Origin: Candidatus Saccharimonadota bacterium
Lineage (GTDB): Bacteria; Patescibacteria; Saccharimonadia; Saccharimonadales; Nanosyncoccaceae
Assembly: GCA_017429465.1 (NCBI GenBank)
Contig: JAFROU010000043.1
Coordinates: 1 to 21,793 of the forward strand
DNA length: 21,793 bases
Reading direction: 5' to 3'
Position 1 is the stretch's first letter; every line of letters starts with the position of its first letter. The translations under genes and the position numbers were made by a program. Below, one piece after another: positions 2,483 to 20,117 of this stretch. A model generated the notes under the pieces. That model worked only from the letters and a program-made list of their open reading frames with translations. It made no database searches and was not told the DNA's origin.

Positions 2483-2488
2483 TCTGCG

Positions 2489-2497
2489 TGCTATAAT
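2489..2497 (+). promoter_or_regulatory. Extended -10 promoter, TGCTATAAT, leaderless unit
   Basis: TGnTATAAT whose last T is followed by six bases and then the ATG at 2504. Transcription starting seven bases after the hexamer would begin on the A of the start codon. No convincing -35 box or SD is visible. Confidence 0.75.
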
Positions 2498-2503
2498 TAA
2501 AGC

Positions 2504-2917: not shown

Positions 2918-2920
2918 AAA

Positions 2921-2929
2921 TGTTATAAT
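2921..2929 (+). promoter_or_regulatory. Extended -10 promoter, TGTTATAAT, for iscS-mnmA
   Basis: TGnTATAAT ends six bases before the ATG at 2936, so the transcript should start at or next to the start codon (leaderless). No SD is present before the ATG. Confidence 0.78.
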
Positions 2930-2935
2930 ATATTC

Positions 2936-5093: not shown

Positions 5094-5128
5094 AAAAAAG
5101 CGGCCCGAAGGCCGCTGCGATGGTTTTT
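5094..5128. terminator. Bidirectional intrinsic terminator between mnmA and the convergent membrane gene
   Basis: A 7-bp G+C-rich stem (AGCGGCC, 5099-5105, with GGCCGCT, 5110-5116) and a 4-base loop. Read on the minus strand the loop is UUCG and the stem is followed by six Ts (complement of 5094-5099), a textbook terminator for the minus-strand gene. Read on the plus strand the loop is CGAA and a T5 run comes seven bases later (5124-5128), so it is weaker but probably also ends iscS-mnmA. Confidence 0.88.
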
Positions 5129-5450
5129 AAGCGCCAATTTGAAGATAGTAACTATATCCAACGCAAAAGATTGAAAAGAAGGCTAGTCCCGCCTCAATTA
5201 GAGTTCCCGGTGCATGAGTGTCTAGATCGAAGAGCGAGAGCATGAAAGAAATATGAAGAGACAATAAAATGCCTATTTTTGCATAGCCAAAGTTATTCCA
5301 GCCGGTCAGATTTAACAGCACGGCGTAAATAACCACCATTGGCACAGTAATGTAGGCAATTAGTTTTGCGTATTTCTTTTGCTCGTTCCATGCTCCGATA
5401 CCGGAGATCAAGACGATTGCTAGCCAGAGTCCAAACCTTACATGATACAT
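5127..5450 (-). CDS. Small four-helix integral membrane protein of unknown function
   Basis: A 107-residue, very hydrophobic protein with about four predicted transmembrane helices (near residues 5-22, 28-48, 55-75 and 83-103) and short polar loops such as NEQKKYAK and DLDTHAPG. I recognise no family. The start is unusually well supported: GAGGAGGGG (complement of 5456-5464) sits five bases before the ATG. A promoter with a recognisable -35 box lies about 60 bases upstream, leaving a leader of roughly 55 bases. This contrasts with the leaderless units around it. The gene is monocistronic, converges on mnmA across a shared terminator, and diverges from alaS, whose promoter region overlaps its own. 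Two other frames in this span are shadows. Confidence 0.82.
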   Translation of the reverse strand: MYHVRFGLWLAIVLISGIGAWNEQKKYAKLIAYITVPMVVIYAVLLNLTGWNNFGYAKIGILLSLHISFMLSLFDLDTHAPGTLIEAGLAFFSIFCVGYSYYLQIGA

Positions 5451-5455
5451 ACTTA

Positions 5456-5464
5456 CCCCTCCTC
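5456..5464 (-). promoter_or_regulatory. Strong Shine-Dalgarno site, GAGGAGGGG
   Basis: The longest anti-SD match in the window, five bases from the ATG at 5450 on the minus strand. It decides the start of the small membrane protein and confirms that this lineage retains SD-led initiation. Confidence 0.85.
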
Positions 5465-5509
5465 AAAAAATGTATATTTGGCACCCTTTTAAAGTACAAC
5501 CATAATAAA

Positions 5510-5537
5510 ATTATACTATAAAACTACAAAAAATCAA
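5510..5537 (-). promoter_or_regulatory. Promoter TTGATT-16-TATAAT for the minus-strand membrane gene
   Basis: On the minus strand TTGATT (5537-5532) and TATAAT (5515-5510) are separated by 16 bases. The -10 has no TGn extension, in line with use of a -35 box. The predicted start near 5503 leaves a leader of about 50-55 bases that carries the strong SD. The -35 is a few bases from the alaS -10 on the other strand, so the two promoters may interfere with each other. Confidence 0.65.
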
Positions 5538-5541
5538 GTTA

Positions 5542-5550
5542 TGGTATAAT
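5542..5550 (+). promoter_or_regulatory. Extended -10 promoter, TGGTATAAT, for alaS
   Basis: TGnTATAAT ends seven bases before the alaS ATG at 5558. The predicted transcript is leaderless or has at most one extra base. No SD is present. Confidence 0.78.
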
Positions 5551-5557
5551 ATTCTGC

Positions 5558-7438: not shown

Positions 7439-7452
7439 CCTCTTGCCAACTG

Positions 7453-7461
7453 TGGTATAAT
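7453..7461 (+). promoter_or_regulatory. Extended -10 promoter, TGGTATAAT, for the FtsA-like gene
   Basis: TGnTATAAT ends six bases before the ATG at 7468, only 15 bases after the alaS stop. Leaderless start predicted. There is no terminator between alaS and this promoter, so read-through from alaS is also likely. Confidence 0.77.
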
Positions 7462-7467
7462 AGTACC

Positions 7468-8733
7468 ATGAGCATTATACGCAAAGAAAAACTCGAAAAA
7501 GCTCCTCTTGACGATGCAATCTTAGCCCTCGATATTGGTACTGAATTTGTTAAAGCTGTGATTGCTAGACCAGCTAAAGATGGCACACTCAAAATAATTG
7601 GTGTAGGCAGAGCTCATCAAGCCGCCAATAATATGTATGCCGGCGCCATTGCCGATATTCCTGCCGTTACGACCGTTTGTGAAAAAGCTCTCAGTATCGC
7701 TGAAAACCAGGCACAATTAACTGCTAAAACTGTTGTGGTTGGCATTGCTGGCGAACTCGTAAAAGGCAACACTTCTACCGTGCGTTATCACCGCCAAAAC
7801 GGCAACAAGCCACTCTCTAACCAAGAAATGGAACTAATTATAAAGAAAGTTCAAGACGCCGCGCGTGAAGAAGCTAGAAACGAGGTTGCACTCGAAACTA
7901 ATAACCCAAACGTCGAAGTTCGCTTAATTAATTCAGCCGTAGTGTCACTCACGATTGATGGCTATAAAGTTAGTAACCCAATTGGCTTCAAAGGCTCAGA
8001 CGTGATGATTCAGTTCTATACCGCCTTCGCTCCGCTCGTACATATTTCAGCCATCGAAAAAGTTTGTGCTGAGCTTAATCTTGATTTATTAGCCGTAGCC
8101 GTAGAACCATTCGCGGTTTGTCGCGCTTGCCTTGGTGATGATGACGACAATAACCTCTCAGCAGTGGTGATGGACATCGGTGGCGGCACTACCGACATTG
8201 CCGTAGTCGATGATGGAGGTGTAGAAGGCACCAAAATGTTTGGCATCGGTGGCCGCAGCTTTACGCACCAAATTGCCGAATCGCTAGGCGTAGAATTTGC
8301 CGTAGCCGAGAAGTATAAATTGCAAATTGATAAAGGTAAGCTTGAAAAACGTCTAGAAGAAAAGGTTGAAATGGCAGTCGATCGCAATCTTTCGGTTTGG
8401 CTCGCCGGCATTCAAATTGCGCTTGAAGATTTTCGTTTAGTAGAAGTGATGCCTAATAATATTTTACTTTGTGGTGGTGGCGCTGGCTTAATTGCCTTAC
8501 AAGAAAAACTCGCCACTGGCGATTGGTACAAAGAACTTTCCTTTGCCCGCCGCCCAGTAGTGCACCTGGTTGAAACTGAAGATATTCCAGGAATTTCAAA
8601 TTCTACCAACACTAAACTTGATCATTCTTATATCACCGCTCTTGGTTTACTGCGTGTTGCTATGGATACTACCGCCGAAATTCCAGAAGAAGGCGGACTC
8701 CGTTCTAAATTAGCTAAAATTACTAAGATTTAA
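7468..8733 (+). CDS. ftsA: FtsA-like actin-fold cell division protein
   Basis: Member of the actin/HSP70 ATPase superfamily. FtsA anchors FtsZ filaments to the membrane. It has 421 residues, matching FtsA. The phosphate-1 loop is LALDIGTEFVKAVI (about residues 19-32). An SHS2 insertion follows at about residues 85-190, with the FtsA-type GYKVSNPIGFKG. The phosphate-2 loop is VVMDIGGGTTDIAVVDDGG (about 232-250), and the adenosine-binding GG is in ILLCGGGAGL. The short C-terminal tail (GGLRSKLAKITKI) is basic and amphipathic, as expected of a membrane-targeting helix. The SHS2 domain favours FtsA over PilM, but PilM of type IV pili is a relative and cannot be fully excluded. No ftsZ is adjacent. 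The 3' end overlaps the convergent pseudouridine synthase by 11 bases. Confidence 0.75.
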   Translation: MSIIRKEKLEKAPLDDAILALDIGTEFVKAVIARPAKDGTLKIIGVGRAHQAANNMYAGAIADIPAVTTVCEKALSIAENQAQLTAKTVVVGIAGELVKGNTSTVRYHRQNGNKPLSNQEMELIIKKVQDAAREEARNEVALETNNPNVEVRLINSAVVSLTIDGYKVSNPIGFKGSDVMIQFYTAFAPLVHISAIEKVCAELNLDLLAVAVEPFAVCRACLGDDDDNNLSAVVMDIGGGTTDIAVVDDGGVEGTKMFGIGGRSFTHQIAESLGVEFAVAEKYKLQIDKGKLEKRLEEKVEMAVDRNLSVWLAGIQIALEDFRLVEVMPNNILLCGGGAGLIALQEKLATGDWYKELSFARRPVVHLVETEDIPGISNSTNTKLDHSYITALGLLRVAMDTTAEIPEEGGLRSKLAKITKI

Positions 8734-9478
8734 ATTCACTAAATTCACCCGGCTTTAGTCCAGACAAAGCATACTGGCCGAATTGTTTGCGATGCAATTT
8801 AACTACTTGGTAGCCGAGCGCATTAAAAGTGCGCCTGATTTGGCGATTACGACCTTCGCTCATGGTTACTTCCCAATTTAGGCGGGAATCATCCAGGCGA
8901 GTAAGGCCTAGTTTACTAATGCCGTCACCAATTTCAATACCAAAATCGCTGATCTCTTGCTGGTGTAATGGTTCTAGTGCGCGGCTAAGCTGCACTTCGT
9001 AAATCTTAGTTTTAATAAACTTTGGGTGTGTCATCTGAAAAGCAAAATCGCCATCGTTGGTCAAAAGAATAATGCCAGAAGAATCCTTATCAAGCCTACC
9101 AACAGACTTTAATGCCTGGTATTTCTTTGGCAGCAGCTCGTAAATAGTTGGCGCATCACCCTGTTTTTTTCGTGAGCAAACGTAGCCTACCGGTTTATTT
9201 AACGCGAGATAAAGAAAATCCGTTGCAAACGGAACGACTTTATTATTATAGCATATTTTATCATTATTGTCAATACGAGAACCTAAAACAGCGATCTTAC
9301 CATTAATGAGAACCTTACCACCACCAATCGCATCGTCGGCTTCACGACGAGATATTCCTAATCTTTCTGCTAAAAACTTATTGAGCCGGAGTTGGTGGGA
9401 CGGCTGGTCCAGCTGTTGCGGCTGGTGCTGGTGCAGCGGCTGGCGCGGCTGCAGGAGCGGCTGGTGCTGCTTGTCCAT
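8723..9478 (-). CDS. RsuA/RluB-family rRNA pseudouridine synthase
   Basis: Isomerises uridine to pseudouridine in rRNA. It has 251 residues. The first 30 are an unusual Gln/His/Pro-rich extension. An S4 RNA-binding domain follows (RLNKFLAERLGISRREADDAI, about residues 31-75), then the catalytic domain with the Asp in SVGRLDKDSSGIILLTNDGD, the YEVQLSRAL strand, and the family signature MSEGRNRQIRRTFNALGYQV. RluB, RsuA, RluE and RluF cannot be separated by eye; length and S4 domain favour an RluB type. The start at 9478 is the only ATG/GTG/TTG in frame before the S4 domain and has AAGGAG six bases upstream. It lies 101 bases inside the response regulator gene, in another frame, so the N-terminal extension is overprinted on that gene's Ala/Pro tail. 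The 3' end overlaps the FtsA-like gene. Confidence 0.88.
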   Translation of the reverse strand: MDKQHQPLLQPRQPLHQHQPQQLDQPSHQLRLNKFLAERLGISRREADDAIGGGKVLINGKIAVLGSRIDNNDKICYNNKVVPFATDFLYLALNKPVGYVCSRKKQGDAPTIYELLPKKYQALKSVGRLDKDSSGIILLTNDGDFAFQMTHPKFIKTKIYEVQLSRALEPLHQQEISDFGIEIGDGISKLGLTRLDDSRLNWEVTMSEGRNRQIRRTFNALGYQVVKLHRKQFGQYALSGLKPGEFSEFKS

Positions 9479-9860
9479 TAGTGGCTCCTTGGCGATCGCC
9501 TAATATTTCATGAATAACATTTACCACGTCCTCAATTCCAACTTGAGACTTAACTAGATAGCGGTCTGCTCCTAGTGACTCACCACGTTGGCGCTGATCG
9601 TCAGACGAAAGAGCGGTCATGATGATAACCTTAGTCTTGGCGGTATCTGGAGTCGAGCGCAAGATATCGAGAAAATCAAAACCAGAAATTTTTGGCATCA
9701 TCACATCGAGCAAAACCAAATCTGGTTTTTCACGCATGGCAGTAGCTAAGGCTTCTTCACCATCAGCAGCAGAGACCACGTCATACATCTCGGCGACGAG
9801 ACGAATACTGTAAATCTCGCGTAGGCTGGAATCGTCTTCTACAATCATTATTTTTGTCAT
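9378..9860 (-). CDS. Single-domain (receiver-only) response regulator with Ala/Pro-rich tail
   Basis: CheY-like receiver of a two-component system. It has 160 residues, of which about 1-125 are the receiver. The acidic pair is D9/D10 in IVEDDSS, the phospho-acceptor is D52 in LVLLDVMMPKISG, the switch residue is T82 in VIIMTALSS, and the invariant lysine is K104 in DRYLVKS. All key residues are intact. No DNA-binding or enzymatic output domain follows. Instead the last 30 or so residues are almost only Ala and Pro. The upstream kinase gene has a similar tail, so they are very likely cognate. The start has AGGAG five bases upstream, and a possible own promoter lies between the two genes. Its output is presumably protein-protein interaction; the target cannot be read here. 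Confidence 0.92.
   Translation of the reverse strand: MTKIMIVEDDSSLREIYSIRLVAEMYDVVSAADGEEALATAMREKPDLVLLDVMMPKISGFDFLDILRSTPDTAKTKVIIMTALSSDDQRQRGESLGADRYLVKSQVGIEDVVNVIHEILGDRQGATNGQAAPAAPAAAPAAAPAPAATAGPAVPPTPAQ
9395..9475 (-). repeat. Low-complexity GCN/CCN region encoding the regulator's Ala/Pro tail
   Basis: A G+C-rich run of Ala and Pro codons, imperfectly repetitive (recurring GCTGGTGCTGG-like units on the plus strand). In the overlapping frame it is read as the Gln/His/Pro-rich start of the pseudouridine synthase. It resembles the sequence at 9900-10110 in the kinase tail, so the two may have exchanged or copied sequence. Confidence 0.6.
9485..9490 (-). promoter_or_regulatory. Shine-Dalgarno site (AAGGAG) inside the response regulator gene
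   Basis: AAGGAG on the minus strand, six bases before the ATG at 9478. It supports initiation of the pseudouridine synthase within the coding region of the upstream regulator. Confidence 0.7.
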
Positions 9861-9865
9861 AGGTT

Positions 9866-9885
9866 CTCCTTATAGTGTTATTATA
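9866..9885 (-). promoter_or_regulatory. Possible internal promoter (TATAAT) and SD for the response regulator
   Basis: On the minus strand TATAAT (9885-9880) lies just after the kinase stop, and AGGAG (9870-9866) lies five bases before the ATG at 9860. The TATAAT lacks the TGn extension seen at the leaderless genes, and no clear -35 was found. It may be a secondary promoter or chance A+T sequence; the SD is solid. Confidence 0.5.
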
Positions 9886-9887
9886 CC

Positions 9888-11465
9888 CTAGTTTTGTTGT
9901 TGCGGTGAAATTTGTGTTGGCGGAGCAGCTGGCGCTGGAGGCTGGACTGGGGCCTGCGGTGCCGGTTGTGGTGTTGGCGCGGTTGGCGCTGGAGCAACCG
10001 GTGCTGCTTGCGGAGCTGGTTGCGCAGCTTGTGGCGCTGGTGCAGCGGCTGGCGCTTGCGCGGCCGGTGCAGCTTGTGACGCTGCGGTCGTTGGGGCGGC
10101 TGCTTCCTCAGTACGGTAATCCGTCATGCGATTAATTGGAATTGGGCGAGCTGGTTGGAGCAAGGCAGCATTAAGTCCATCACTGGTGCCATCACCAGCA
10201 ACTTTTATTCCGCCCGTCTTAGCTTCAAATTGAGCAGTTTTTTCGGTGAAAGCCTGAACTTTTTCTTCATTTTCAATTGCGATACGACGTTTCTCGTACT
10301 CGTCAGAAGATAGACGAGGTAGGGAAATATAAAAGGTTGAACCAGAACCTAACGTACTTTCTACCCATGCGCGACCACCCATTGATTCTGTACGCTCCTT
10401 TACGAGATAGAGACCAAGACCAGTACCACCAATTGTACGTGTCTGGGAATTATCCACGCGGTAGAACTTCTGGAAAATGTGCGCCACATCATCCGGCGCG
10501 ATACCAATACCTGTATCAGAAACACTAATTACTACGCGGTCGCCTTCGCCGCGAGCATTCACCTGGACGGTGCCACCGTTACCAGTGTATTTAAAAGCGT
10601 TTTCAATCAAATTTGAAAGAATTTCGTGCAAGAAACCAGTATCCGCAAAAGTATATAACACCTGGTCAAGTTTGCGTTGCTGGTTGAAATTATTTGTATC
10701 ACCACCAATCACATACTTAATTTGCTTCTTTTGCATGTTTGGAATATATTCTTCGGCCACTTTATGAACAAATTCGGCAGCTTCTAGCGGCACTAAGTGC
10801 ATACGCACGCGGCCGTCATCAAGTTTAGTTACGTCGAGCAAATCCTGGAATAAGCGACCAAGGTGTTTACTAGCGGCGTGAGCCTCTTCAAGATATTTAC
10901 GAGCGCGATCATCAATCGTTGCCGTTTGCGGGTTAAGCGCAATACCTAGATAGCCTTCAATTGAAGCTACCGGTGTACGCATCTCATGACTGGCGGTTGA
11001 AATAAACTCAGTTTGTGCGTTGTCTTCTTCTAGTTCCTTAGTAATATCGCGGAAAGTAATAATACGATCGCCTAATATACCATTAGTTGGCAAAACTGAA
11101 ATATAAATTGGCACTTGGCGATCCTTGCCAGATTGAATTAAAGAAAAATCACGTGATTCATAATTTTTGCTACCACGCACAGCCATTACTACGGGGTTTT
11201 CAGTATCTCTCATCTGGGCGCCTTCATTATTTGCCAGTTTTAATACCGTGAGATAGTCTAGCCCTACTGCATTTTTTGGATTAGAAATACCTGCCAAAGC
11301 GGCAGCAGCCGGGTTGCATAAGCGCACAATGCCATTACGGTCAACGATAATCACGCCATCCTGAATGACATTAAGGGCCAACTCTGCCATTGCAGAATTA
11401 GACATCGCATCAGCGGCGCGCAGAGGCGTTCCGGTAGATTTTTTTCCAAAACTAAAAATGCCCAT
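9888..11465 (-). CDS. Soluble PAS-domain sensor histidine kinase with Ala/Pro/Gln-rich tail
   Basis: Two-component sensor kinase of 525 residues with no transmembrane segment, so it should sense a cytoplasmic signal or be tethered by partners. A PAS domain spans about residues 28-140 (IQDGVIIVDRNGIVRLCNPA; ITFRDITKE). The HisKA dimerisation domain has the phospho-acceptor H160 in STASHEMRTPVASIEGYLG. The HATPase domain shows the N box (NLIENAFKYTGNGG, about 285-298), the G1 box DTGIGIAPDD, the F box FQKFYRVD and the G2 box GGTGLGLYLVKER. The final 75 or so residues are low-complexity Ala, Pro and Gln. The catalytic parts are intact. It is followed after 27 bases by the receiver gene. It has a predicted leaderless promoter, divergent from the wall operon. 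Confidence 0.93.
   Translation of the reverse strand: MGIFSFGKKSTGTPLRAADAMSNSAMAELALNVIQDGVIIVDRNGIVRLCNPAAAALAGISNPKNAVGLDYLTVLKLANNEGAQMRDTENPVVMAVRGSKNYESRDFSLIQSGKDRQVPIYISVLPTNGILGDRIITFRDITKELEEDNAQTEFISTASHEMRTPVASIEGYLGIALNPQTATIDDRARKYLEEAHAASKHLGRLFQDLLDVTKLDDGRVRMHLVPLEAAEFVHKVAEEYIPNMQKKQIKYVIGGDTNNFNQQRKLDQVLYTFADTGFLHEILSNLIENAFKYTGNGGTVQVNARGEGDRVVISVSDTGIGIAPDDVAHIFQKFYRVDNSQTRTIGGTGLGLYLVKERTESMGGRAWVESTLGSGSTFYISLPRLSSDEYEKRRIAIENEEKVQAFTEKTAQFEAKTGGIKVAGDGTSDGLNAALLQPARPIPINRMTDYRTEEAAAPTTAASQAAPAAQAPAAAPAPQAAQPAPQAAPVAPAPTAPTPQPAPQAPVQPPAPAAPPTQISPQQQN
9900..10110 (-). repeat. Low-complexity region encoding the kinase's Ala/Pro/Gln tail
   Basis: Imperfect repeats of Ala, Pro and Gln codons (plus-strand units such as GGCGCTGGTGCAGCGGCTGG). 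A near copy of that unit is also found in the regulator tail near 9425-9450. The kinase catalytic domain ends well before this stretch. Confidence 0.6.
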
Positions 11466-11471
11466 ATACTT

Positions 11472-11480
11472 ATTTTAACA
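11472..11480 (-). promoter_or_regulatory. Extended -10 promoter, TGTTAAAAT, for the kinase operon
   Basis: On the minus strand TGnTAAAAT ends six bases before the kinase ATG at 11465, again predicting a leaderless mRNA. It shares a 49-base divergent intergenic region with the promoter at 11497. Confidence 0.68.
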
Positions 11481-11496
11481 CAAGCATGATAAAATG

Positions 11497-11505
11497 TGGT
11501 ATATT
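11497..11505 (+). promoter_or_regulatory. Extended -10 promoter, TGGTATATT, for the wall operon
   Basis: TGnTATATT ends nine bases before the ATG at 11515, so the leader would be about three bases at most. No SD is present. It is a weaker match than the other promoters (TATATT). Confidence 0.6.
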
Positions 11506-11514
11506 TAAATTAAT

Positions 11515-13167
11515 ATGAATAAAGACGTTATCTATGTAGAGCCTGAGGATGATATTACTGATATCATTACAAAGTTAAAAGCGGCCAAGCAAAAGGTGGT
11601 AGCGTTGGTTCCGCCAAAGAAGGCTAGCGTTTTTCGAAGCGCTGTTAACATTAAACTTATTTCTAAATCTGCGAAGGATAATAGCAAACTAGTTGTTTTT
11701 GTAACAACGGATTCCGCTATCATGAAGCTTGCCATGGCCTCTCGTATTCCAGTCGCACCAAATCTCCAGACTCGCCCAATCATTCCGAAAGCCGAAGACA
11801 TTAAAGTTTCAGCCCCAGCCGAAGTCGAAGAAGAAGTCACCGAAGAAGAGATTGAAGATGGAGAGTCAGCCAAGGCAGAAAAAGTTATCGAGTCAGACGA
11901 AATTGAAGATGAAGATTCCGAAGAAGATGCCAAGGCTAAAAAGAAGGCTGCAAAAGAAGGCAAAATTACTGGTAAAGTACCAACTCTAGATAAATATCGT
12001 AAGTGGATCATTATCGGTTCTTCTACTTTTATCGCTCTAATATTATTCTTGGTCTGGGCGTTTGTCTTTGCGCCACATGCTACCATTAATGTCAAAGTTC
12101 GCACTACCGCCGCCCCGTTTTCTGAGACAGTCACTTTCACCACCAAAGAATCCGAAGTTGACAATGAAGCCGGCAAATTCTACATAGACAATAATACGCT
12201 TGAAAAAGAATCCGAAATTACCTTTGAGGCTACTGGTAGAAAAAACACTGGTAACAAAGCATCCGGTAGTATTAAAGTCGCCGCCTATTTCTCCGCCCAA
12301 GGCTCATTAAACATTGATAGCGGTACTACATTTACTTTTAATAATCTCGTCTATGTCGCTTCAGCCGCTACCTCGTTATCTTGGAACGGAGAAGAAAGCG
12401 TCTGCGAGAATCATGGCAGTCTCATCATCGACAGGAGTTGTCGCGTTTCCGTTAACGTATCTGTTGTGGCTAGTGGTGCTGGTGCTCAGTATAACATTGA
12501 TGCCGCCAATTCTGGTTGGACCAGTGGCAATAAGAATCTTAGCATTGTCTCTGCCAGCGCAATGGCCGGAGGAACAGACAACTTCATCACCGTCGTTCAA
12601 CAATCAGATATAGATAAAGCCAAAGAAAGTCTTAAGACCGAGAATGAATCTGATGGCAAGAAGGAACTGATAGAAAAAATTGGCGAAGCAAACGTAATTA
12701 TTGATGAGAGTTTTGCTGTCACTACCACAGATCCAATTGTCAGTCCAAAACTTGGCGAAGAAGTAAAAGAGGGCGTTACTCCAACTATTACCGCTAAAAC
12801 CACCTTCTCTATATTTTCCGTAGATCTTCCTCCGATTAGAGACTTTATCAATAAAAAAGCTAATATTGGCAGTGACGAAAAAGTCTATGCTGTTGGCGAA
12901 CCATACTTTGAACGCTTTGCCAAAAATTCCGATACACTTTATTCTGCTAGATTAAAGACTGATTATGAATTTGGTCCAAAAATTACCGAAGAAAGCATCC
13001 TTGAGTTGGTCAAAGGCCGCAAGATTGGCGAGGTAAGCTCACTAATTAAGGGTTCTAACGCTAATGGCGTGTCAGATGTTAATGCCCTCACTTCTTTCTT
13101 CTGGGTTACTTCCGTTCCAAACGACCCGAATAAGATTACTATCAACCTAACGATTCAAGAAAAATAA
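11515..13167 (+). CDS. Single-pass membrane protein with a baseplate J-like external domain
   Basis: A 550-residue protein in four parts. An N-terminal cytoplasmic alpha/beta domain of about 95 residues comes first (VIYVEPEDDITDIITKLKAA, KVVALVPPKKASVF, SKLVVFVTTD). A very acidic linker follows at about 100-145 (runs of Glu and Asp), then Lys-rich residues. One transmembrane helix lies at about 163-185. The extracytoplasmic part of about 360 residues contains ASGSIKVAAYF...SGTTFTFNNLVYVA, a pattern shared with baseplate J/gp47-like domains in annotated CPR proteins. No other phage gene is nearby, so I take it as a cellular envelope protein, not a tail part. It heads an operon with RuvX-MltG (TAATG overlap) and a CHAP hydrolase, which hints at a role in wall or surface structure. 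The function is not established. Confidence 0.78.
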   Translation: MNKDVIYVEPEDDITDIITKLKAAKQKVVALVPPKKASVFRSAVNIKLISKSAKDNSKLVVFVTTDSAIMKLAMASRIPVAPNLQTRPIIPKAEDIKVSAPAEVEEEVTEEEIEDGESAKAEKVIESDEIEDEDSEEDAKAKKKAAKEGKITGKVPTLDKYRKWIIIGSSTFIALILFLVWAFVFAPHATINVKVRTTAAPFSETVTFTTKESEVDNEAGKFYIDNNTLEKESEITFEATGRKNTGNKASGSIKVAAYFSAQGSLNIDSGTTFTFNNLVYVASAATSLSWNGEESVCENHGSLIIDRSCRVSVNVSVVASGAGAQYNIDAANSGWTSGNKNLSIVSASAMAGGTDNFITVVQQSDIDKAKESLKTENESDGKKELIEKIGEANVIIDESFAVTTTDPIVSPKLGEEVKEGVTPTITAKTTFSIFSVDLPPIRDFINKKANIGSDEKVYAVGEPYFERFAKNSDTLYSARLKTDYEFGPKITEESILELVKGRKIGEVSSLIKGSNANGVSDVNALTSFFWVTSVPNDPNKITINLTIQEK

Positions 13168-14705
13168 TGAAATTAATTGGCCTTGATATTGGTACGAAAC
13201 GCATTGGTGTCGCCAAGGTGGATATGGATAGCGTCAAAATAGCTGTCCCATATGGCACGATTGATGTTGATGGTACCGAATTTAACCAAATTGCTTCGTT
13301 CTCTCGCGTCTATGGCACCGAGATGTTTGTCTTAGGTCTGCCACGTAATTCTCAAGGACAAGAAACTAAACAAAGCGAATATGTCAGAGACTTTGCAAAA
13401 AAACTAAAAAAGGCAATCCCAAGCGCTAAAGTTTGTTTTCAGGACGAGTCACTTACCTCGGTTGAAGCTGAAGAACGTCTAAAAAGCCGCAAGCAGAATT
13501 ACGAAAAGGGCGAAATCGACGCAGAGGCTGCCACTATTATTTTGCAGGACTTTGTCGAGAACTTTTCCGAACAAACCATCACTGACCAGGATAAATATGC
13601 TAAAAAAAAGACGCATAGCCACAAAAAACTCGGCTTCAAGATTTTGAGTGTCGCAATTGTTATTGCTATATTATTAGTAATTTTTGCAGCTGGTTCTGTA
13701 ATATGGTACAAACAGATGGTCAAGCCAGTTGGTATGGAATGTGCCGCTACTAGTGCCGAAGCAAACGATACGTGCGAACCTACCGCATACATCGTTGCCG
13801 ACGGGGCTACCGTTAGTCAAATTGGCGACGGACTCGCTTCTGCCGGTCTCATCAAGAACTCTCTCGCCTTCCAAATCTACATTCGTATTAATCATCTAAC
13901 CGAGCAAATTAAATCTGGTAAATATCACCTTTATCCATACCAGTCAGTAGCGGAAATTGTAGAAGAACTCAAAACCGGTGGCACAAGCGACAATGTTTTT
14001 CGTCTTACCATTCTGCCGGGTGAAACTATTAGGGAAGTGAAAGCCAGGCTGATTAAGGTTGGCTATGCCCAATCCGACATCGATGCTGCCTTCTCTAAGC
14101 AGTACGATCACCCATTACTTGCTACTAAACCAGCCAATGCCTCACTCGAGGGTTATCTTTATGGCGATACTTATGAGTTTTATAACGACGATACCGTTGA
14201 AACGGTTTTAACGCGCCTCTTCGACGAGCTATATAGTGTAGTTCAAGACAATGATTTAGAAAACAAATTTAAAGCCCAAGGTTTAACGCTCCATCAGGGA
14301 ATTATTCTAGCTTCTATCGTCCAAAAAGAAGCTCATCCAGCCGACCAGGCCACCGTGGCCCAAGTCTTTTATAAGCGTCTTAAAATGGGCATCATGCTTG
14401 GTAGCGACGTGACGGTTAAATACGCCGTTGACCAAGTTGATCCAGAGCGAAAAGTATATACTGATAACGCCAAAGCTCTACGTATTAATTCTTGCTACAA
14501 CACACGCATGAATAGTGGTCTACCTTGCGGCGCCATCTCTAATCCAGGCAAGAGCGCACTCGTTGCCACTGCTAATCCAGCCAATACCTCTTACCTTTAT
14601 TTCTTGACAGGTGATGATGGTAAGATGTATTATGGTAATACGGAGGCCGAGCACAATCAGAATATTCGCGTCCATTGCCAGGTCTCTTGTTACGCTTCAT
14701 TATGA
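13167..14705 (+). CDS. mltG: RuvX (YqgF)-MltG fusion: Holliday junction resolvase-like domain joined to endolytic transglycosylase
   Basis: One 512-residue frame holding two usually separate proteins. Residues 1 to about 135 are RuvX/YqgF, an RNase H-fold nuclease involved in 16S rRNA 5' processing and possibly Holliday junction resolution. It shows LIGLDIGTKRIGVAKVD, FVLGLPRN, CFQDESLTSVEAEERL and EIDAEAATIILQDF, with the acidic residues kept. A Lys/His-rich linker leads to a transmembrane helix at about 157-181. Residues from about 205 are a LysM-like part and the MltG/YceG domain, which cuts nascent glycan strands. The catalytic glutamate is E388 in ILASIVQKEAH, and NSGLPCGAISNPG, a variant of the usual GLPPGPI motif, is present. 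Topology fits: nuclease inside, transglycosylase outside. The start overlaps the previous stop (TAATG), and the stop overlaps the next start (ATGA). Confidence 0.9.
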   Translation: MKLIGLDIGTKRIGVAKVDMDSVKIAVPYGTIDVDGTEFNQIASFSRVYGTEMFVLGLPRNSQGQETKQSEYVRDFAKKLKKAIPSAKVCFQDESLTSVEAEERLKSRKQNYEKGEIDAEAATIILQDFVENFSEQTITDQDKYAKKKTHSHKKLGFKILSVAIVIAILLVIFAAGSVIWYKQMVKPVGMECAATSAEANDTCEPTAYIVADGATVSQIGDGLASAGLIKNSLAFQIYIRINHLTEQIKSGKYHLYPYQSVAEIVEELKTGGTSDNVFRLTILPGETIREVKARLIKVGYAQSDIDAAFSKQYDHPLLATKPANASLEGYLYGDTYEFYNDDTVETVLTRLFDELYSVVQDNDLENKFKAQGLTLHQGIILASIVQKEAHPADQATVAQVFYKRLKMGIMLGSDVTVKYAVDQVDPERKVYTDNAKALRINSCYNTRMNSGLPCGAISNPGKSALVATANPANTSYLYFLTGDDGKMYYGNTEAEHNQNIRVHCQVSCYASL

Positions 14706-15844
14706 AACTGAAACTCAAGAAATCGACTAAAAACTTTTTACTCGAGCTAATACCATATACTCTTGTAGCCGCAGTAGTTTTAGCTGTGGCAATTTTTGGT
14801 TCCATCGATAAAAAATCCAGTACCTCTAGTTTAAATCTAGCTTATCTAGATAATGATAATTTTACTGTTTCCTCAGACCAGTTATCCGAGATGTATGTGG
14901 TCGCCAGCATGTCTGACTCGATGAATCTTGCTAGTACAGATGTAGTTTCTAACAACTACGTTATCGTTTCTGTGATGCGCGACGTCGGCCAAAGTGCTAG
15001 CGCCAACACGTCTTCTGTACAAAAACCTACAGTAGTAGATACTTCTAATCTTACTCGCGGTGTATTCACATACACTGTCAAGGCTGGTGATACAATGGAT
15101 AAAATTATCGAACAGCTCAGAAAGGAACGTAATAATCTTACCTTAACTAAAGATCAAATCCGCTGGTCTAATAAACTTAAAACTACAAATCTTAATGCTG
15201 GACAAGTTCTATATCTTCCAAGCACTTCAGGTATTGTTTATACCGTTAAGGCTGGCGATACAGTTAACTCCATTGCTTCACGTTACAGCTCTCCTGCTGA
15301 CCAAATTATTTCTTACAATGACTTAGAGAACGCTGGCCTAGTAGTTGGTGAGCGCATCGTGTTGCCTAATGGCGTGCTTCCAGAAAGAGAACGCCCAGAA
15401 TACGTTGCGCCTATTGTTCGCACTTACACCTACACCTACACCTATTCCGGTATGAGCCGCAGCCGTCTAAATCTCCGTGTAGTTGGATACATGCGCGGTG
15501 TTTCCTCGCCTGGTAATCCAGGCGTGCCTGGTCAATGTACCTGGTATGCTTGGTATTGGCGTGCTACTGATCCAAAATCCCTTGGCAGACTCCCAGGAGG
15601 ATTACACAATGCTAGAGACTGGGTTGGACAGCTCAGAGCTCAAGGCTACCGTGTTGACCACACGCCACAAGTTGGTGCTGTCTTCCACACTTATTCTGGC
15701 TACTATGGGCATGTTGGCGTGGTTACTGCTATTAATGCCGACGGCACTATTACCGTCCGCGAGATGAACCTTGGCGTGCCATACCGTGTGACGGAGGCCG
15801 AAATCCCAGCCAACCTCATTGGTACCTTCAACTATATTCACTAG
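14702..15844 (+). CDS. Membrane-anchored LysM-LysM-CHAP peptidoglycan hydrolase
   Basis: A 380-residue cell-wall enzyme. The chosen ATG at 14702 overlaps the mltG stop as ATGA; an in-frame ATG at 14675 would add nine residues but lies deeper in mltG. A basic start is followed by a hydrophobic helix at about 13-35, a signal anchor or uncleaved signal. Two LysM peptidoglycan-binding domains lie at about 122-173 (YTVKAGDTMDKII) and 179-223 (YTVKAGDTVNSIASRY). A Thr/Tyr repeat linker (TYTYTYTY, 241-248) comes next. The C-terminal CHAP domain at about 270-380 has C279 in GQCTWYAWYW, H337 in YYGHVGVVTAIN and the following EMN. CHAP domains act as amidases or endopeptidases on stem peptides. Paired with MltG, it would trim newly made wall. 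Confidence 0.9.
   Translation: MKLKLKKSTKNFLLELIPYTLVAAVVLAVAIFGSIDKKSSTSSLNLAYLDNDNFTVSSDQLSEMYVVASMSDSMNLASTDVVSNNYVIVSVMRDVGQSASANTSSVQKPTVVDTSNLTRGVFTYTVKAGDTMDKIIEQLRKERNNLTLTKDQIRWSNKLKTTNLNAGQVLYLPSTSGIVYTVKAGDTVNSIASRYSSPADQIISYNDLENAGLVVGERIVLPNGVLPERERPEYVAPIVRTYTYTYTYSGMSRSRLNLRVVGYMRGVSSPGNPGVPGQCTWYAWYWRATDPKSLGRLPGGLHNARDWVGQLRAQGYRVDHTPQVGAVFHTYSGYYGHVGVVTAINADGTITVREMNLGVPYRVTEAEIPANLIGTFNYIH
15425..15442 (+). repeat. Short tandem repeat (TACACC)3 in the CHAP gene
   Basis: Three perfect copies of the hexamer TACACC, coding for Tyr-Thr units in the linker between the second LysM and CHAP domains. The linker could vary in length by slippage without loss of frame. Confidence 0.8.
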
Positions 15845-15860
15845 CATTTTTAATAAAATA

Positions 15861-15869
15861 TGGTATAAT
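15861..15869 (+). promoter_or_regulatory. Extended -10 promoter, TGGTATAAT, for obgE
   Basis: TGnTATAAT ends nine bases before the ATG at 15879 and twelve before the second ATG at 15882. The leader would be three to six bases at most, with no SD: leaderless or nearly so. Confidence 0.75.
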
Positions 15870-15878
15870 TAAACCATT

Positions 15879-17174
15879 ATGATGTTTGTTGATACCGCAA
15901 AAGTAAAACTAAAAGCCGGCAAAGGTGGTGACGGTGCAGTTTCTTTTCGCCACGAAATTTACATCCCAAAGGGTGGACCAGACGGTGGAGACGGCGGTAA
16001 AGGCGGTTCCATCATTTTTAAGGCTGATAAAGATACTAATACCTTGCTAGATTTTCGTTTCAATCAAGAGCTTAAAGCTGAAGACGGTAAAAACGGTGCT
16101 GGTACTCGTTCTGCTGGTCGTGGCGGCAAAGATTTAATCGTGGAAGTGCCAATTGGCACAGTTGTCTATAAAACCATCGATAATAAACGCATCCAAATTG
16201 CCGATTTAACCAAGGACGGAGAAGAAGCAATTATCGCTAAGGGTGGCGATGGTGGTTTTGGTAACGCTCATTTTAAGAGCTCAACTCGTCAAGCCCCAAT
16301 TATTGCTGAAGTTGGCGAACCAGGCGAAGAATTTGAAGCCGAAATTGAACTAAAACTCCTAGCCGATGTTGGTTTAGTCGGTTTACCGAATGCTGGTAAA
16401 TCCACTTTCCTATCAGTTGTTTCTAATGCTAAGCCAGAAATTGCCGATTATCCATTTACTACTATCACGCCAAATCTTGGCATGGCTACTGTTGATGGAA
16501 AAGATATTTTGATTGCCGATATCCCAGGTCTTATTGAAGGAGCTTCTGAGGGTAAAGGTCTTGGCCATGCTTTCTTGCGTCACGTTGATCGTACCGCTGT
16601 GTTGTTGCATTTAATTGATATCTATAATGATGATGCCGGCAAAGCCTACCAAACAATTCGTACCGAGCTAGAAAAGTATTCTGATCTCAAAGATCGCCCA
16701 GAAATTGTTGCTCTCACCAAATGTGAAGGCGTTGACGCTGAGATTATTAAAATGCAAAAGGATGCAATCCTAAAAATCAATAAAGATGCCAACATTTTTG
16801 AAATCTCATCTGTGGCGCATCAAGGAATTACTCCACTGCTTCGTGAAATCAAAAAGGTGATTGCAAACTGCCAAGTTAAAAGAGTTGAAAAAACCGAAGA
16901 AAAGCCAGAGCTGCCAGTAATATCACTTAACAAAAATGATTTAAAAGACACCTTCAAAGTCGAAAAAACTGAAGATGGTAAATTTATTGTAACCGGCGAA
17001 AAAATCGAAAAATTTGCACGCCGTACCGACCTAAATAACTACGCCTCACTAAACCGCTTACGCGATATCATGAAAAAGCTTGGTATCCGCGCCGAGCTTA
17101 CTTCTCTAGGCGCCGAACCAGATTCTATCATCTGTATTGCAGATAGAGAATTCACGCTTGTGGAAGATTATTAA
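15879..17174 (+). CDS. obgE: GTPase ObgE/CgtA
   Basis: Essential Obg GTPase in large-subunit assembly and the stringent and cell-cycle response. It has 431 residues. The glycine-rich Obg fold occupies about 1-158 (AGKGGDGAVSFRHE; GGPDGGDGGKGGSI). The G domain follows: P-loop GLPNAGKST near residue 170, switch I DYPFTTITPNLG, and switch II ADIPGLIEGASEGKGLG. The base-specificity motif reads LTKCEGVD where NKxD is usual. A C-terminal OCT domain is present (about 355-431, RTDLNNYASLNRLRDIMKKLG). Two ATGs in tandem make 15879 or 15882 equally possible; most relatives begin MFVD, which fits 15882. It is a single-gene unit: the next element is the promoter of the structured RNA, ten bases after the stop. 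Confidence 0.94.
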   Translation: MMFVDTAKVKLKAGKGGDGAVSFRHEIYIPKGGPDGGDGGKGGSIIFKADKDTNTLLDFRFNQELKAEDGKNGAGTRSAGRGGKDLIVEVPIGTVVYKTIDNKRIQIADLTKDGEEAIIAKGGDGGFGNAHFKSSTRQAPIIAEVGEPGEEFEAEIELKLLADVGLVGLPNAGKSTFLSVVSNAKPEIADYPFTTITPNLGMATVDGKDILIADIPGLIEGASEGKGLGHAFLRHVDRTAVLLHLIDIYNDDAGKAYQTIRTELEKYSDLKDRPEIVALTKCEGVDAEIIKMQKDAILKINKDANIFEISSVAHQGITPLLREIKKVIANCQVKRVEKTEEKPELPVISLNKNDLKDTFKVEKTEDGKFIVTGEKIEKFARRTDLNNYASLNRLRDIMKKLGIRAELTSLGAEPDSIICIADREFTLVEDY

Positions 17175-17183
17175 AAACCGCTC

Positions 17184-17212
17184 TTGACAAAACGCTTATG
17201 TTACGATAGAAT
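17184..17212 (+). promoter_or_regulatory. Near-consensus sigma70 promoter TTGACA-17-TAGAAT for the structured RNA
   Basis: TTGACA at 17184-17189, a 17-base spacer, and TAGAAT at 17207-17212. The predicted start is about 17219. This is the best -35/-10 pair in the window, and its type differs from the extended -10 promoters of the protein genes, as is common for stable RNA genes. Confidence 0.82.
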
Positions 17213-17274
17213 AAAATCAAGCTGATACGCTTCACAGGGGTTCCACTGATTCAATAGTGGAGTGTGGAGACTAC

Positions 17275-17303
17275 ATTAAAACAAACAGCGGATTAAAACA
17301 AAC
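17275..17303 (+). repeat. Direct repeat ATTAAAACAAAC x2 inside the structured RNA
   Basis: ATTAAAACAAAC occurs at 17275-17286 and 17292-17303, with AGCGG between (period 17). It falls in the predicted unpaired apical part of the RNA and could be a repeated protein- or RNA-binding site. Confidence 0.75.
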
Positions 17304-17338
17304 CAATGTGCCCCAGGGTGGGCGCGCGTCAGCGCGAT

Positions 17339-17370
17339 AGAGACCGAGCAATCGGTCTCTTCGGGTTTTT
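17339..17370 (+). terminator. Intrinsic terminator of the structured RNA
   Basis: A 9-bp stem AGAGACCGA (17339-17347) with TCGGTCTCT (17352-17360) closed by a GCAA tetraloop, then TCGGG and a T5 run (17366-17370). The T run is five bases from the stem, so termination may be imperfect. It abuts the trmD promoter, separating the RNA from trmD. Confidence 0.8.
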
Positions 17371-17371
17371 A

Positions 17372-17380
17372 TGGTATAAT
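17372..17380 (+). promoter_or_regulatory. Extended -10 promoter, TGGTATAAT, for trmD
   Basis: TGnTATAAT ends six bases before the ATG at 17387. It supports that ATG over an in-frame one at 17306, which would lie inside the structured RNA. Leaderless start predicted. Confidence 0.8.
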
Positions 17381-17386
17381 ATATTT

Positions 17387-18046
17387 ATGAGCAAAATCAA
17401 GTTTACTATTATTACGTTATTCCAAGAAGCGATGGAACCATATCTTAACGCATCAATGATGTGGAAGGCCAAAGATAAAGGCATCGCCGAATTTGATTTT
17501 GTGAATTTACGCGAGTTTGGACTTGGCCCTCATAAATCTGTCGATGACACACCTTACGGCGGTGGTGATGGTATGCTGCTCCGCTGCGAACCAGTTTTTG
17601 CTGCTATTGAATCCGTCAAGGAAAAAGATCCAACTGCTAAAGTAATTCTACCTACTCCAGCTGGTGAAACCTGGAGTCAGCAGCAAGCACAGAAGTTTGC
17701 TGAGGCTGGCGGGCACTATATTATTCTTTGCCCTCATTATGAAGGCTATGACGAACGCATCCTGAGCCTTGTAGATTATCAAATCTCGCTCGGACATTTT
17801 GTCTTAACTGGTGGGGAACTACCAGCACTCACGATGATTGATTCCATCGTACGCCTAATTCCAGGCGTACTCGGTGGCGAAACTTCAGCCGAAATCGAAA
17901 GCTTTTCAGACGGTGATAACATTGAATACCCACAATACACTAAGCCGGCAGAATTTCGTGGCATGAAAGTGCCAGAAGTCTTATTATCCGGTAATCACGG
18001 CGCAGTCGATAAGTGGCGCGCTGAAAATTCAAAAAAGGCTAAATAG
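17387..18046 (+). CDS. trmD: tRNA (guanine-N1)-methyltransferase TrmD
   Basis: SPOUT-class enzyme that puts m1G at position 37 of tRNAs reading CUN, CCN and CGG codons, preventing +1 frameshifts. It has 219 residues from the chosen start, somewhat shorter than the usual 240-255. Motifs in order are MSKIKFTIITLFQEAMEPY, the conserved DDTPYGGGDGMLLRCEPV, LCPHYEGYDERIL (usually CGRYEGxDER), SLGHFVLTGGELPAL and RLIPGVLGG, which form the trefoil knot that binds AdoMet. PQYTKPAEFRGMKVPEVLLSG closes the domain, with a short C-terminal part. It stands alone here, without rpsP, rimM or rplS, its common partners elsewhere. The next promoter begins about ten bases after the stop. Confidence 0.95.
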   Translation: MSKIKFTIITLFQEAMEPYLNASMMWKAKDKGIAEFDFVNLREFGLGPHKSVDDTPYGGGDGMLLRCEPVFAAIESVKEKDPTAKVILPTPAGETWSQQQAQKFAEAGGHYIILCPHYEGYDERILSLVDYQISLGHFVLTGGELPALTMIDSIVRLIPGVLGGETSAEIESFSDGDNIEYPQYTKPAEFRGMKVPEVLLSGNHGAVDKWRAENSKKAK

Positions 18047-18056
18047 TCTATCTATC

Positions 18057-18065
18057 TGCTAAAAT
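18057..18065 (+). promoter_or_regulatory. Extended -10 promoter, TGCTAAAAT, for recG and following genes
   Basis: TGnTAAAAT ends six bases before the recG ATG at 18072. Leaderless start predicted; no SD. Confidence 0.7.
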
Positions 18066-18071
18066 AGATTT

Positions 18072-20117
18072 ATGGATCTTTCTCTATCGATTGAGAATGC
18101 TAAGGGAGTGGGCCCAAAAACTGCGGAGGTGCTTGGAAAGGCCGGTATTAAAACTCTGCGTGATCTTTTTTATACTCTGCCTCGCGCCTATGAAAACTAC
18201 CAAGCGCCAACCAAAATTCGTGATATTAAACCAGGCAAAGTCGTAATTAAGGGCAAGATTAGCGACATCAATACCAGATATACTCGTCGTCGCAATTTCA
18301 CCGTTACTGAGGCGGTAGTTAGCGACAATACCGATTCCGTCCGCGTAGTCTGGTTTAACCAACCATACCGCGCCAAACAATTTATTGAAGGCAAAGAATA
18401 CTATTTTTCAGGAGAATTTAACCTGTCGCACGGACGCTATCAATTATCTTCACCATCCGCAACGCTTGCTACCGAAGTGGACCAAGACGAAACCTTTCGC
18501 CCCATCTATGTCGCGCATCACAACATAAAATCACTTAATTTCAAGCGTATCATTAGTAATTTAAGACCAGAATTTGCCACTATACCAGATTTGCTTCCAA
18601 CTGAAAATGCCCCAGTCTTCGTCAAAACTCATGCTCGCGCAGAAGCACTCTTTAATGTTCACTTTCCAACCGACCAAACTAATGTGGACGATGGTCGCAG
18701 ATACTTGGCTTACGAAGAATTGTTTGAACTGATTTTGGCCGCAAATCTTAACCGCAACGAAAACCAGAAATTAAAATCAATTCCACTACCATTTAGCGCC
18801 GCCAAAACTAAAGCCTTTGTCGAAAACCTACCTTTTAAGCTTACTAACGCTCAGCGTCGAGCCACTTGGGAAATCCTGCAAGATCTTGAGAAACCTACAC
18901 CAATGAATCGTCTACTGCAAGGCGATGTTGGTTCTGGTAAAACCGTGGTTGCGGCGATTGCGGCTGCTCAAGCCGCACAGAACGGCCATCAGACCGCCCT
19001 ACTTGCACCAACCGCCATTCTGGCCACTCAGCATGCTGAAAAATTGCAGAGCCTACTTTCACCATTTGGCATTTCTGTGGCACTCTTGACTGGCGCCACC
19101 AAAAATAAGCCGGAACTTAAAAAACACATTTTGAACGGCGATGTAGACTTAGTGGTTGGCACACACGCTATTATTACAGACGATACAGAGTTCAAGTCTT
19201 TGGCCCTCTGTATTATTGACGAGCAGCACCGCTTTGGGGTGAATCAGCGCCAGAAACTTGTGCTAAAAAGCCCTAAAGGTGCTGCGCCACATCTTCTTTC
19301 GATGACCGCCACACCAATTCCACGCTCGCTTCAACTCACTATCTTTGGTGATCTTGACGTTTCGATTTTGAACGAGCTACCGAAAGGCCGTCAGCCGATT
19401 GAGACACAGATTATCTCGGAAGTAAATCTTGCTCTTGATCTCTATCCAATAATCAGTGCGACTTATCATCAGAAACATCAGGTTTATTGGATTTGTAAGG
19501 CAATTGACGATAATCCAAGCACCGAAACCGCCTCCGTTAAAAAACAAACCCTAAAGCTTAAACAGATCTTTTCAGACGCCAAAATTGAATTTTTGCACGG
19601 GCGCATGAAACCAGCCGAAAAAGACGAAGTGATGAGTAGATTTGCCGCAGGCGAGATTGATATACTAGTTTCCACCACTGTCGTGGAAGTTGGCGTCGAT
19701 GTTCCGAATGCGTCTATCATCGTAATCCAAGACGCCGAACAATATGGTTTGGCGCAATTACATCAATTACGCGGTCGCGTGGGTCGCGGACCAATCAAGA
19801 GCTATTGCTATCTGCTTTCAGACAATGAAAATGGACCATCTAGACGCCTAAAAGAGCTTGAAAAATCTAACGACGGTTTTTATCTTGCCGAAATTGATCT
19901 TAAACTCCGTGGCCCAGGCGAAATCTATGGTCAGTTGCAACATGGCGCCCTAGACCTTCGCATCGCTTCTTTGACTGATACCTACCTTATCGCACTTGCT
20001 CAAAAACAGGCCAAGAGTTTTGCCAGAAGCATTAGCCAAAATCCCGAAATTATGTTAAAATATCCAGAGTTAGCTTCCGGAATTCAGAAATATCAACAGC
20101 TAACCACTCTAAATTAG
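18072..20117 (+). CDS. recG: ATP-dependent DNA helicase RecG
   Basis: Superfamily 2 translocase that remodels stalled replication forks and branch-migrates junctions. It has 681 residues, the usual size. The N-terminal helix-hairpin-helix and wedge/OB domain comes first (IENAKGVGPKTAEVLGKAGI; then the OB barrel at about 60-140). The helicase core shows Walker A LLQGDVGSGKTVVAA near residue 283, APTAILATQH (Ia), motif II IIDEQHRFGVNQR near 381, motif III SMTATPIPRSL, motif V VSTTVVEVGVDVPNA and motif VI QLHQLRGRVGRG. The TRG region follows (ELEKSNDGFYLAEIDLKLRGPGE). All motifs are intact. It heads a unit with the next two genes, one base separating it from the second. Confidence 0.95.
   Translation: MDLSLSIENAKGVGPKTAEVLGKAGIKTLRDLFYTLPRAYENYQAPTKIRDIKPGKVVIKGKISDINTRYTRRRNFTVTEAVVSDNTDSVRVVWFNQPYRAKQFIEGKEYYFSGEFNLSHGRYQLSSPSATLATEVDQDETFRPIYVAHHNIKSLNFKRIISNLRPEFATIPDLLPTENAPVFVKTHARAEALFNVHFPTDQTNVDDGRRYLAYEELFELILAANLNRNENQKLKSIPLPFSAAKTKAFVENLPFKLTNAQRRATWEILQDLEKPTPMNRLLQGDVGSGKTVVAAIAAAQAAQNGHQTALLAPTAILATQHAEKLQSLLSPFGISVALLTGATKNKPELKKHILNGDVDLVVGTHAIITDDTEFKSLALCIIDEQHRFGVNQRQKLVLKSPKGAAPHLLSMTATPIPRSLQLTIFGDLDVSILNELPKGRQPIETQIISEVNLALDLYPIISATYHQKHQVYWICKAIDDNPSTETASVKKQTLKLKQIFSDAKIEFLHGRMKPAEKDEVMSRFAAGEIDILVSTTVVEVGVDVPNASIIVIQDAEQYGLAQLHQLRGRVGRGPIKSYCYLLSDNENGPSRRLKELEKSNDGFYLAEIDLKLRGPGEIYGQLQHGALDLRIASLTDTYLIALAQKQAKSFARSISQNPEIMLKYPELASGIQKYQQLTTLN

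Follow-up and report, generated by a model that had tools for sequence, protein, structure and literature searches.

The described RNAs with which the locus reported here is best compared are 6S RNA, a long rod with a large central bubble and a length of about 160–200 nt, and raiA, OLE and ROOL, which are stand-alone, strongly conserved, lineage-restricted RNAs whose partner was unknown at discovery. The genome of Nanosynbacter HMT352 KC1 has been reported with two ncRNAs, not named in the available part of that paper (PMC8830319), and the available part of the TM7x transcriptome paper (PMC10768705) uses none of the terms ncRNA, noncoding and small RNA. In the literature searched we recognised no paper on the RNA described below.

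The window, a stretch of 21,793 nucleotides analysed at its full length, encodes a TrmD whose closest named relatives among the best matches are Candidatus Saccharibacteria. No Rfam 15 family reaches its gathering score in the window. At E values up to 5 the 271 bases of 17150-17420 gave DUF805 RNA (RF03081) alone, a cis-regulatory class whose 15.8 bits against a gathering score of 51.1 (E 1.8) are at chance level, and in 20 related loci tRNAs were the only Rfam matches. The first-pass annotation, which had placed between obgE and trmD a structured RNA of no recognised class and without tmRNA, SRP or RNase P signature, is in agreement with this search, as no Rfam 15 family, including RF00023, RF00169 and RF00010, matches here. 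As identities of the locus tmRNA and RNase P RNA were both rejected: elsewhere in the genomes RF00023 is over its cut-off in 31 of 32 (weak in the other) and RF00010 in 32 of 32. A small protein is likewise unlikely, the core lengths of relatives differing by single bases. With no match in Rfam 15 and no paper recognised, this is a new RNA family.

The locus between obgE and trmD

The features of the spacer, collected in Table 1, almost certainly make up a stand-alone structured RNA gene. The main elements first read from the DNA are all there: the TTGACA-17-TAGAAT promoter occupies 17184-17212 and carries 11 of the 12 consensus bases, no credible separate gene lies in the spacer from obgE (15879-17174) to trmD (ATG at 17387), 17221-17235 pair with 17318-17333 and 17237-17240 with 17311-17314, the internal hairpin is formed by 17242-17247 and 17256-17261, and the terminator has its 9-bp stem with GCAA loop at 17339-17360. 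The predicted fold of 17214-17370 reaches -57.8 kcal/mol against -39.2 ± 4.1 for shuffled sequences (z -4.53) and beats 200 of 200 shuffles. What did not hold was the statement that no other full -35/-10 promoter exists here: a 12/12 site lies at 9273-9245 (-) and 11/12 sites at 1859 and 14604, and positions 1-19999 contain 47 promoter-like sites against 36.3 ± 6.8 expected. The promoter has weight because it is conserved across members, not because it is unique in the window.

Table 1. Features of the RNA gene and its neighbours in the window, and loci followed by a tRNA gene. A4 and A6 are alignments of 70 and 32 sequences.
Feature	Position	Strand	Remarks
RNA gene locus	17184-17370	+	promoter, folded core of ~119 nt, terminator
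-35 element TTGACA	17184..17189	+	exactly TTGACA in 50/109 members
-10 element TAGAAT	17207..17212	+	17-bp spacer; spacer of 17 in 83/109 members
Conserved RNA core	17219..17337	+	predicted 5' end ~17218-17220, start site from sequence
P1 5' strand GCUGAUACGC	17221..17230	+	ten of ten pairs with double-sided change in A6
P1 3' strand GCGCGUCAGC	17324..17333	+	partner of 17221-17230
UUCAC	17231..17235	+	P1 extension via 17318-17322 (GUGGG), or local pairing within 17230-17236
P2 5' strand GGGGU	17237..17241	+	seven of seven P2 pair columns with double-sided change in A6
P2 3' strand GCCCC	17310..17314	+	partner of 17237-17241
Extra inner hairpin UCCACU(8)AGUGGA	17242..17261	+	long form of the RNA; absent from short form
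Possible competing local 5' hairpin	17230..17269	+	CUUCACA 17230-17236 with UGUGGAG 17263-17269, read from sequence
A-rich loop, two AAAACAAAC repeats	17275..17304	+	at least 2 AAA[CU]A motifs in 94/109 members
Fixed GGGUGGGC adjoining P1	17316..17323	+	69/70 in A4, 30/32 in A6
Intrinsic terminator	17339..17370	+	9-bp stem 17339-17360, GCAA loop, T run 17366-17370
obgE, upstream neighbour	15879..17174	+	
trmD, downstream neighbour	17387..18046	+	ATG at 17387
Loci followed by tRNA-Ala(GGC)			L110, L142, L145, L147, L149, L151, L155, L158, L159, L161, L162, L164, L165, L168, L175, L176, L188, L190, L192, L195-L198

Across a set of 109 members, made up of the window and its relatives, at least 9 of 12 promoter bases are found near the right place in 75, compared with 13% of mononucleotide shuffles; the distance from the end of the -10 element to the start of the core is 5–7 nt in 90, and a terminator-like hairpin with a T run follows in 100, compared with 70 of 545 shuffles. 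Since the set was partly picked with motif patterns, these and the other motif counts in the 109 lean upward. Two loci (L093 and L102) in which the script missed the end motif were left out of the set; both have the RNA and both are in A4. From the placement of promoter and terminator, the predicted transcript begins at the foot of P1 and ends just past P1.

Some other features of the window are recorded here in their own right. Gene callers may extend trmD upstream into the RNA: the open reading frame list starts trmD at 17306 (17306-17386, +), and an identical database entry marked as encoded by the window (P0001) gives TrmD 242 aa, against the 219 used here. The minus-strand promoter-like site at 9273-9245 matches TTGACA-17-TATAAT in full and has a TG in front of the -10 element; it sits inside a minus-strand frame (8723-9475) with S4 and pseudouridine synthase domains, and a response-regulator frame (9378-9857) lies upstream of it. 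At 13167-14702 (+) RuvX (Holliday junction resolvase, residues 4-131) and MltG (endolytic transglycosylase, residues 163-500) are joined in one open reading frame, and the two share a single open frame in 15 of the 15 loci where both matched, which correspond to 14 distinct places (L016 and L241 being the same one).

Covariation and a possible second fold

The family has a common architecture, in which P1 (10 bp) closes the molecule from its first bases and P2 (5–7 bp) lies inside it, the two being separated by a small asymmetric loop with the fixed GG(G)UGGGC strand between them, and an A-rich loop of about 30 nt is present as well. Core length across members is 80–130 nt. A short form of about 90 nt, which was revealed by the weaker matches of our first covariance model (R1), is without the inner hairpin. 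The A-rich loop is strongly conserved in long forms, and its length and spacing vary between lineages.

For the analysis of covariation we counted 17 pairs in the two long-range helices, ten in P1 and seven columns in P2. The stems are conserved and covary in relatives, one of the outcomes on which the first-pass annotation had made its RNA depend: in the 70 sequences of A4, 12 of 17 pairs have changed on both sides (shuffle mean 2.5, with 0 of 500 shuffles as high), and in the 32 divergent sequences of A6 all 17 of 17 have done so, in 75 cells (shuffle mean 8.1), both counts being helped by alignment with models that contain these helices and the motif, and by shuffles that ignore relatedness. 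The covariation score of A6 is 0.422 against 0.148 ± 0.015 for shuffles, and slid registers reach at most 9 pairs. Counted without gaps from the sequence ends, P1 has double-sided change at 5 of 10 positions, with positions 5 and 7 paired in 36/93 and 61/93 (one of 94 sequences, with a variant motif, was dropped). The same weak spots are seen in the alignments: the fifth P1 pair is mostly mismatched (21/32 in A6, 49/70 in A4), the seventh is unpaired in 17/70 (A4), and weakness is also seen at the last two P2 pairs, both in A4 (32 and 4 unpaired, 13 and 25 gapped, of 70) and in A6 (7 and 9 unpaired of 32). Compensatory changes can be followed in single loci, as in L178 (GCUCGUGCGC with GCGCACGAGC and GGCUCUUC with GAAGAGCC), L179 (GGGCGG with CCGCCC), L206 (UCGCGCAG with CUGCGCGA) and L207 (CGGGUGU with ACACCCG and GGCUCG with CGAGCC). 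Given this covariation, selection on the fold is hardly in doubt. While the helices change, GGUGGGC is kept in 70 of 70 (A4) and 32 of 32 (A6) model-aligned members, and the constancy of GGGUGGGC is partly one of ascertainment, because models as well as scripts lean towards it.

Many short forms offer their 5' strand RCGC...GG a second partner, a ...CC...GCGY close by. The local hairpin so formed is better than mononucleotide shuffles (p≤0.05) in 23 of 54 short members (mean z 1.84) and is not in the other 31, including the deepest ones (L201, L203-L207). According to partition functions, RCGC has a pairing probability above 0.5 with the distal strand in 27 and with the local one in 23 of the 54 members of up to 112 nt; in the 55 longer members (>112 nt), three of which are not of the long-form type (L160, L178 and L179), the numbers are 41 distal and 4 local. 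In the window the RCGC strand is distal at 0.75 and local at 0.00, and so the competing hairpin is not favoured there. These calculations suggest that some of the short forms have a second fold, by way of a competing 5' hairpin, and the switch that we discuss below is a reasoned proposal for that part of the RNA family.

Distribution and gene neighbourhood

A TrmD profile search gave 80 loci, 36 of them titled Saccharibacteria, and in many the RNA stands near trmD, in either orientation and with promoter- and terminator-like flanks. By whole-genome BLASTN the RNA was found in 31 of 34 genomes with one match each, three of these matches being partial and weak (E 7.6e-6 to 2.9e-5), and long forms are 77–95% identical to the RNA of the window. 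Covariance model R1 matched 140 of 294 genomes of the class, always once, and R2 matched 232 of 294 at E≤0.01, with 11 of the 232 weaker than 1e-5; 62 of 294 had no R2 match among the best 12-13 first-look candidates per genome, and since just these candidates were scored, misses and second copies are possible. Two genomes (G022 and G031) are the sole ones of the 232 with two R2 matches. We assign the members to one family on finding P1 and P2 with compensatory changes, GGUGGGC and the A-rich loop. The RNA thus appears to be mostly single-copy and widespread in the class Saccharimonadia.

In the phylum, where the best 10 candidates per genome were scored, R2 matched 31 of 379 genomes (a draw whose class share is not stated), and all 31 are also in the class list; 30 are clear and one (G090) is doubtful, being weak and 36 bases long. 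Model R3, built on divergent members, found the same 31 and 7 more genomes at E 0.005–0.045 (one with two matches), which is no more than the chance expectation over 379 genomes. A stricter limit removed 5 weak wrong-strand matches, and phage records gave no match to the RNA. On this sampling the RNA appears to be specific to the class, and the suggestion that it is lineage-specific has stood up well, with 232 of 294 class genomes positive and no R2 match in the phylum draw outside the class list.

What we describe is, on this evidence, a stand-alone RNA family without a match in Rfam release 15, which most of the genomes tested in one class of ultrasmall bacteria contain. An important role is suggested because the RNA is kept in genomes of about 0.6–1.3 Mb (rounded, for genomes with a match). 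The family provides a marker gene, covariance models and a target for the biology of the Candidate Phyla Radiation.

The neighbourhood of the RNA is variable. Of 72 distinct loci, obtained from 87 after setting aside 10 that the motif script did not locate (nine of these from L186 upward) and counting repeated places once, 13 have trmD downstream in the orientation of the RNA, 12 have it in another position or orientation and 23 have obgE but no trmD, while in 24 neither these two genes nor recG come within 600 bases. The latter is the case in all 13 deep loci located from L187 on. A conserved obgE/trmD/recG neighbour was considered and rejected, as these genes do flank many long forms but keep no fixed strand.

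A different neighbour is found in deep loci: in 23 of 60 distinct places (Table 1) the RNA is followed, within about 260 bases and in the same orientation, by tRNA-Ala(GGC). The 60 places come from 64 deep loci scanned, 11 picked by eye and 53 others. In L167, read in its longer copy L191, the gene is about 750 bases away. It was not seen that near upstream or on the opposite strand in deep loci, and 28 long-form loci and the 21.8-kb window are free of tRNA genes. Since a terminator stands between the two genes and long forms have moved away, we tentatively read the adjacency as an old shared place, and it leaves room for a local role in those loci.

Proposed function, rival explanations and comparison with known RNAs

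What is the role of this RNA then? To the full proposal, a constitutive trans-acting RNA which is bound by a conserved protein of the core machinery and refolds in part of the family, we give close to an even chance, and its parts differ in strength. Action in trans is very probable, because obgE and trmD differ from locus to locus in their order and strand relative to the RNA. Protein binding as the main mode is fairly likely: a protein partner is favoured over pairing with many mRNAs because the single-stranded letters are fixed and the helices are changing. That the partner is RNA polymerase or the ribosome, working together with a switch, we consider unlikely in this precise form. The RNA would be abundant. 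The proposed RNA would be made constitutively and at high level from its own promoter and would act in trans, with RNA polymerase or the ribosome as first candidates for the core-machinery partner. The A-rich loop and the GGGUGGGC strand would contact this partner, their letters staying while the helices change. In part of the family the RCGC(NNN)GGGG strand would either pair distally, giving a rod, or fold as a local hairpin, and the exchange between the two might serve to load the partner or let it go, which would resemble the working of 6S RNA without descent from it. One may go further and imagine, in bacteria where we detected neither 6S RNA nor the SRP (RNA or Ffh), a class-defining bistable RNA with a core housekeeping job, an independently arisen functional counterpart of 6S RNA, in which a strand-exchange switch lets the A-rich arm and GGGUGGGC hold and release RNA polymerase or the reduced ribosome; this extended version is speculative and we doubt that it holds as a whole.

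The main mode of action could instead be antisense, with the A-rich loop pairing in trans with U-rich stretches around start codons and so blocking or protecting mRNAs. The strong conservation of the loop in long forms fits this, and the start regions of one contig (G150) contain 30 complementary 8-mers against 12.9 ± 5.3 in shuffles and 72 7-mers against 44.1 ± 7.5; in a second one (G014), however, there is no clear excess (20 against 20.1 ± 6.5 and 59 against 50.2 ± 10.5), all of these being counts from two contigs with crudely called start codons and one loop sequence for both. Loop-complementary words do exceed in-gene controls in both contigs, but T-rich start regions account for much of the remaining excess, words complementary to GGGUGGGC show no clear excess in either contig, and loop length and spacing differ between lineages. 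We regard antisense action as rather improbable. A leader of trmD, that is a cis-acting element or riboswitch with the terminator as its output, would explain why a terminator stands between fold and trmD in the window, but a TATAAT sequence follows between terminator and trmD, and a leader's fixed position and strand are not found: 13 of 72 loci have trmD behind the RNA in its orientation, 12 have it in another place or orientation, and the 13 deep loci located from L187 on lack it, as well as obgE and recG, within 600 bases; such a leader is hardly credible. A tie to the tRNA-Ala(GGC) gene, for example as a leader setting its transcription or processing, has in its favour the 23 of 60 distinct deep loci with that arrangement. 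It has against it the terminator-like hairpin after the RNA in 100 of 109 members and the 28 long-form loci and the window, where the RNA is still 77–95% identical with no tRNA gene present, and the remaining cases would follow from common descent of the place, which leaves a small probability for this reading as a general one.

Two known RNAs could be hidden here in much altered form. That of the signal recognition particle was attractive at first, as the search for small SRP RNA (RF00169) gave 0 of 32 genomes (11 of 14 controls), whole-genome runs being made with this model and not with that of the large form (RF01854). It was dropped once RF00169 gave 0 of 286 in the phylum and the protein Ffh was also not found: of 13 Patescibacteria genomes other than the window's own, 12 are without a TIGR00959 match (8 of 8 in the class) and the thirteenth yields a 22.6-bit fragment alone, while all 14 of 14 controls are positive. 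An SRP RNA is not expected where Ffh is also not found, the sequence has no GNRA-capped domain IV, and a domain-IV pattern gave no more matches than its reversed control, so that we give an altered SRP RNA next to no probability. As an observation apart, bacterial SRP seems absent or unrecognisable in these Patescibacteria genomes, judging from RF00169 in 0/286 and the lack of a TIGR00959 match in 12/13. The other candidate is a true but very divergent and shrunken 6S RNA, as the first-pass annotation had considered. In its favour, RF00013 matches in 0 of 32 genomes, a result weak by itself because the same search is positive in 5 of 14 control genomes, and the strong promoter, the hairpin with an internal loop and the possible alternative fold would suit it. 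The suggestion is not supported by the rest: there is no 6S match at E up to 5 in the 271 bases searched, the core is a two-helix one of 80–130 nt, an A-rich loop stands in place of the terminal stem, and there is a fixed GGGUGGGC, for which 6S RNA is not known. True 6S ancestry is thus very unlikely, and we return to the trans-acting, protein-bound RNA as our working proposal.

How does this RNA compare with those already described? It is much smaller than raiA, OLE and ROOL, and has no Rfam match. With bacterial small SRP RNA (RF00169) it shares the form of a short single-copy hairpin RNA gene; unlike it, it is without a GNRA-capped domain IV, and the protein of that pathway was not found in 12 of 13 genomes. 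The likeness to 6S RNA is a divided one. Membership in the 6S family fails on model match and geometry, and a 6S-like role is conceivable. The newness that we claim refers to the RNA family and not to a biochemical action. Like 6S RNA, the RNA is encoded by a stand-alone gene with a strong sigma-70-type promoter, forms a hairpin with an internal loop and, as we propose, may refold; unlike 6S RNA, it is built from two short helices, an A-rich apical loop and a fixed GGGUGGGC, within a core of 80–130 nt.
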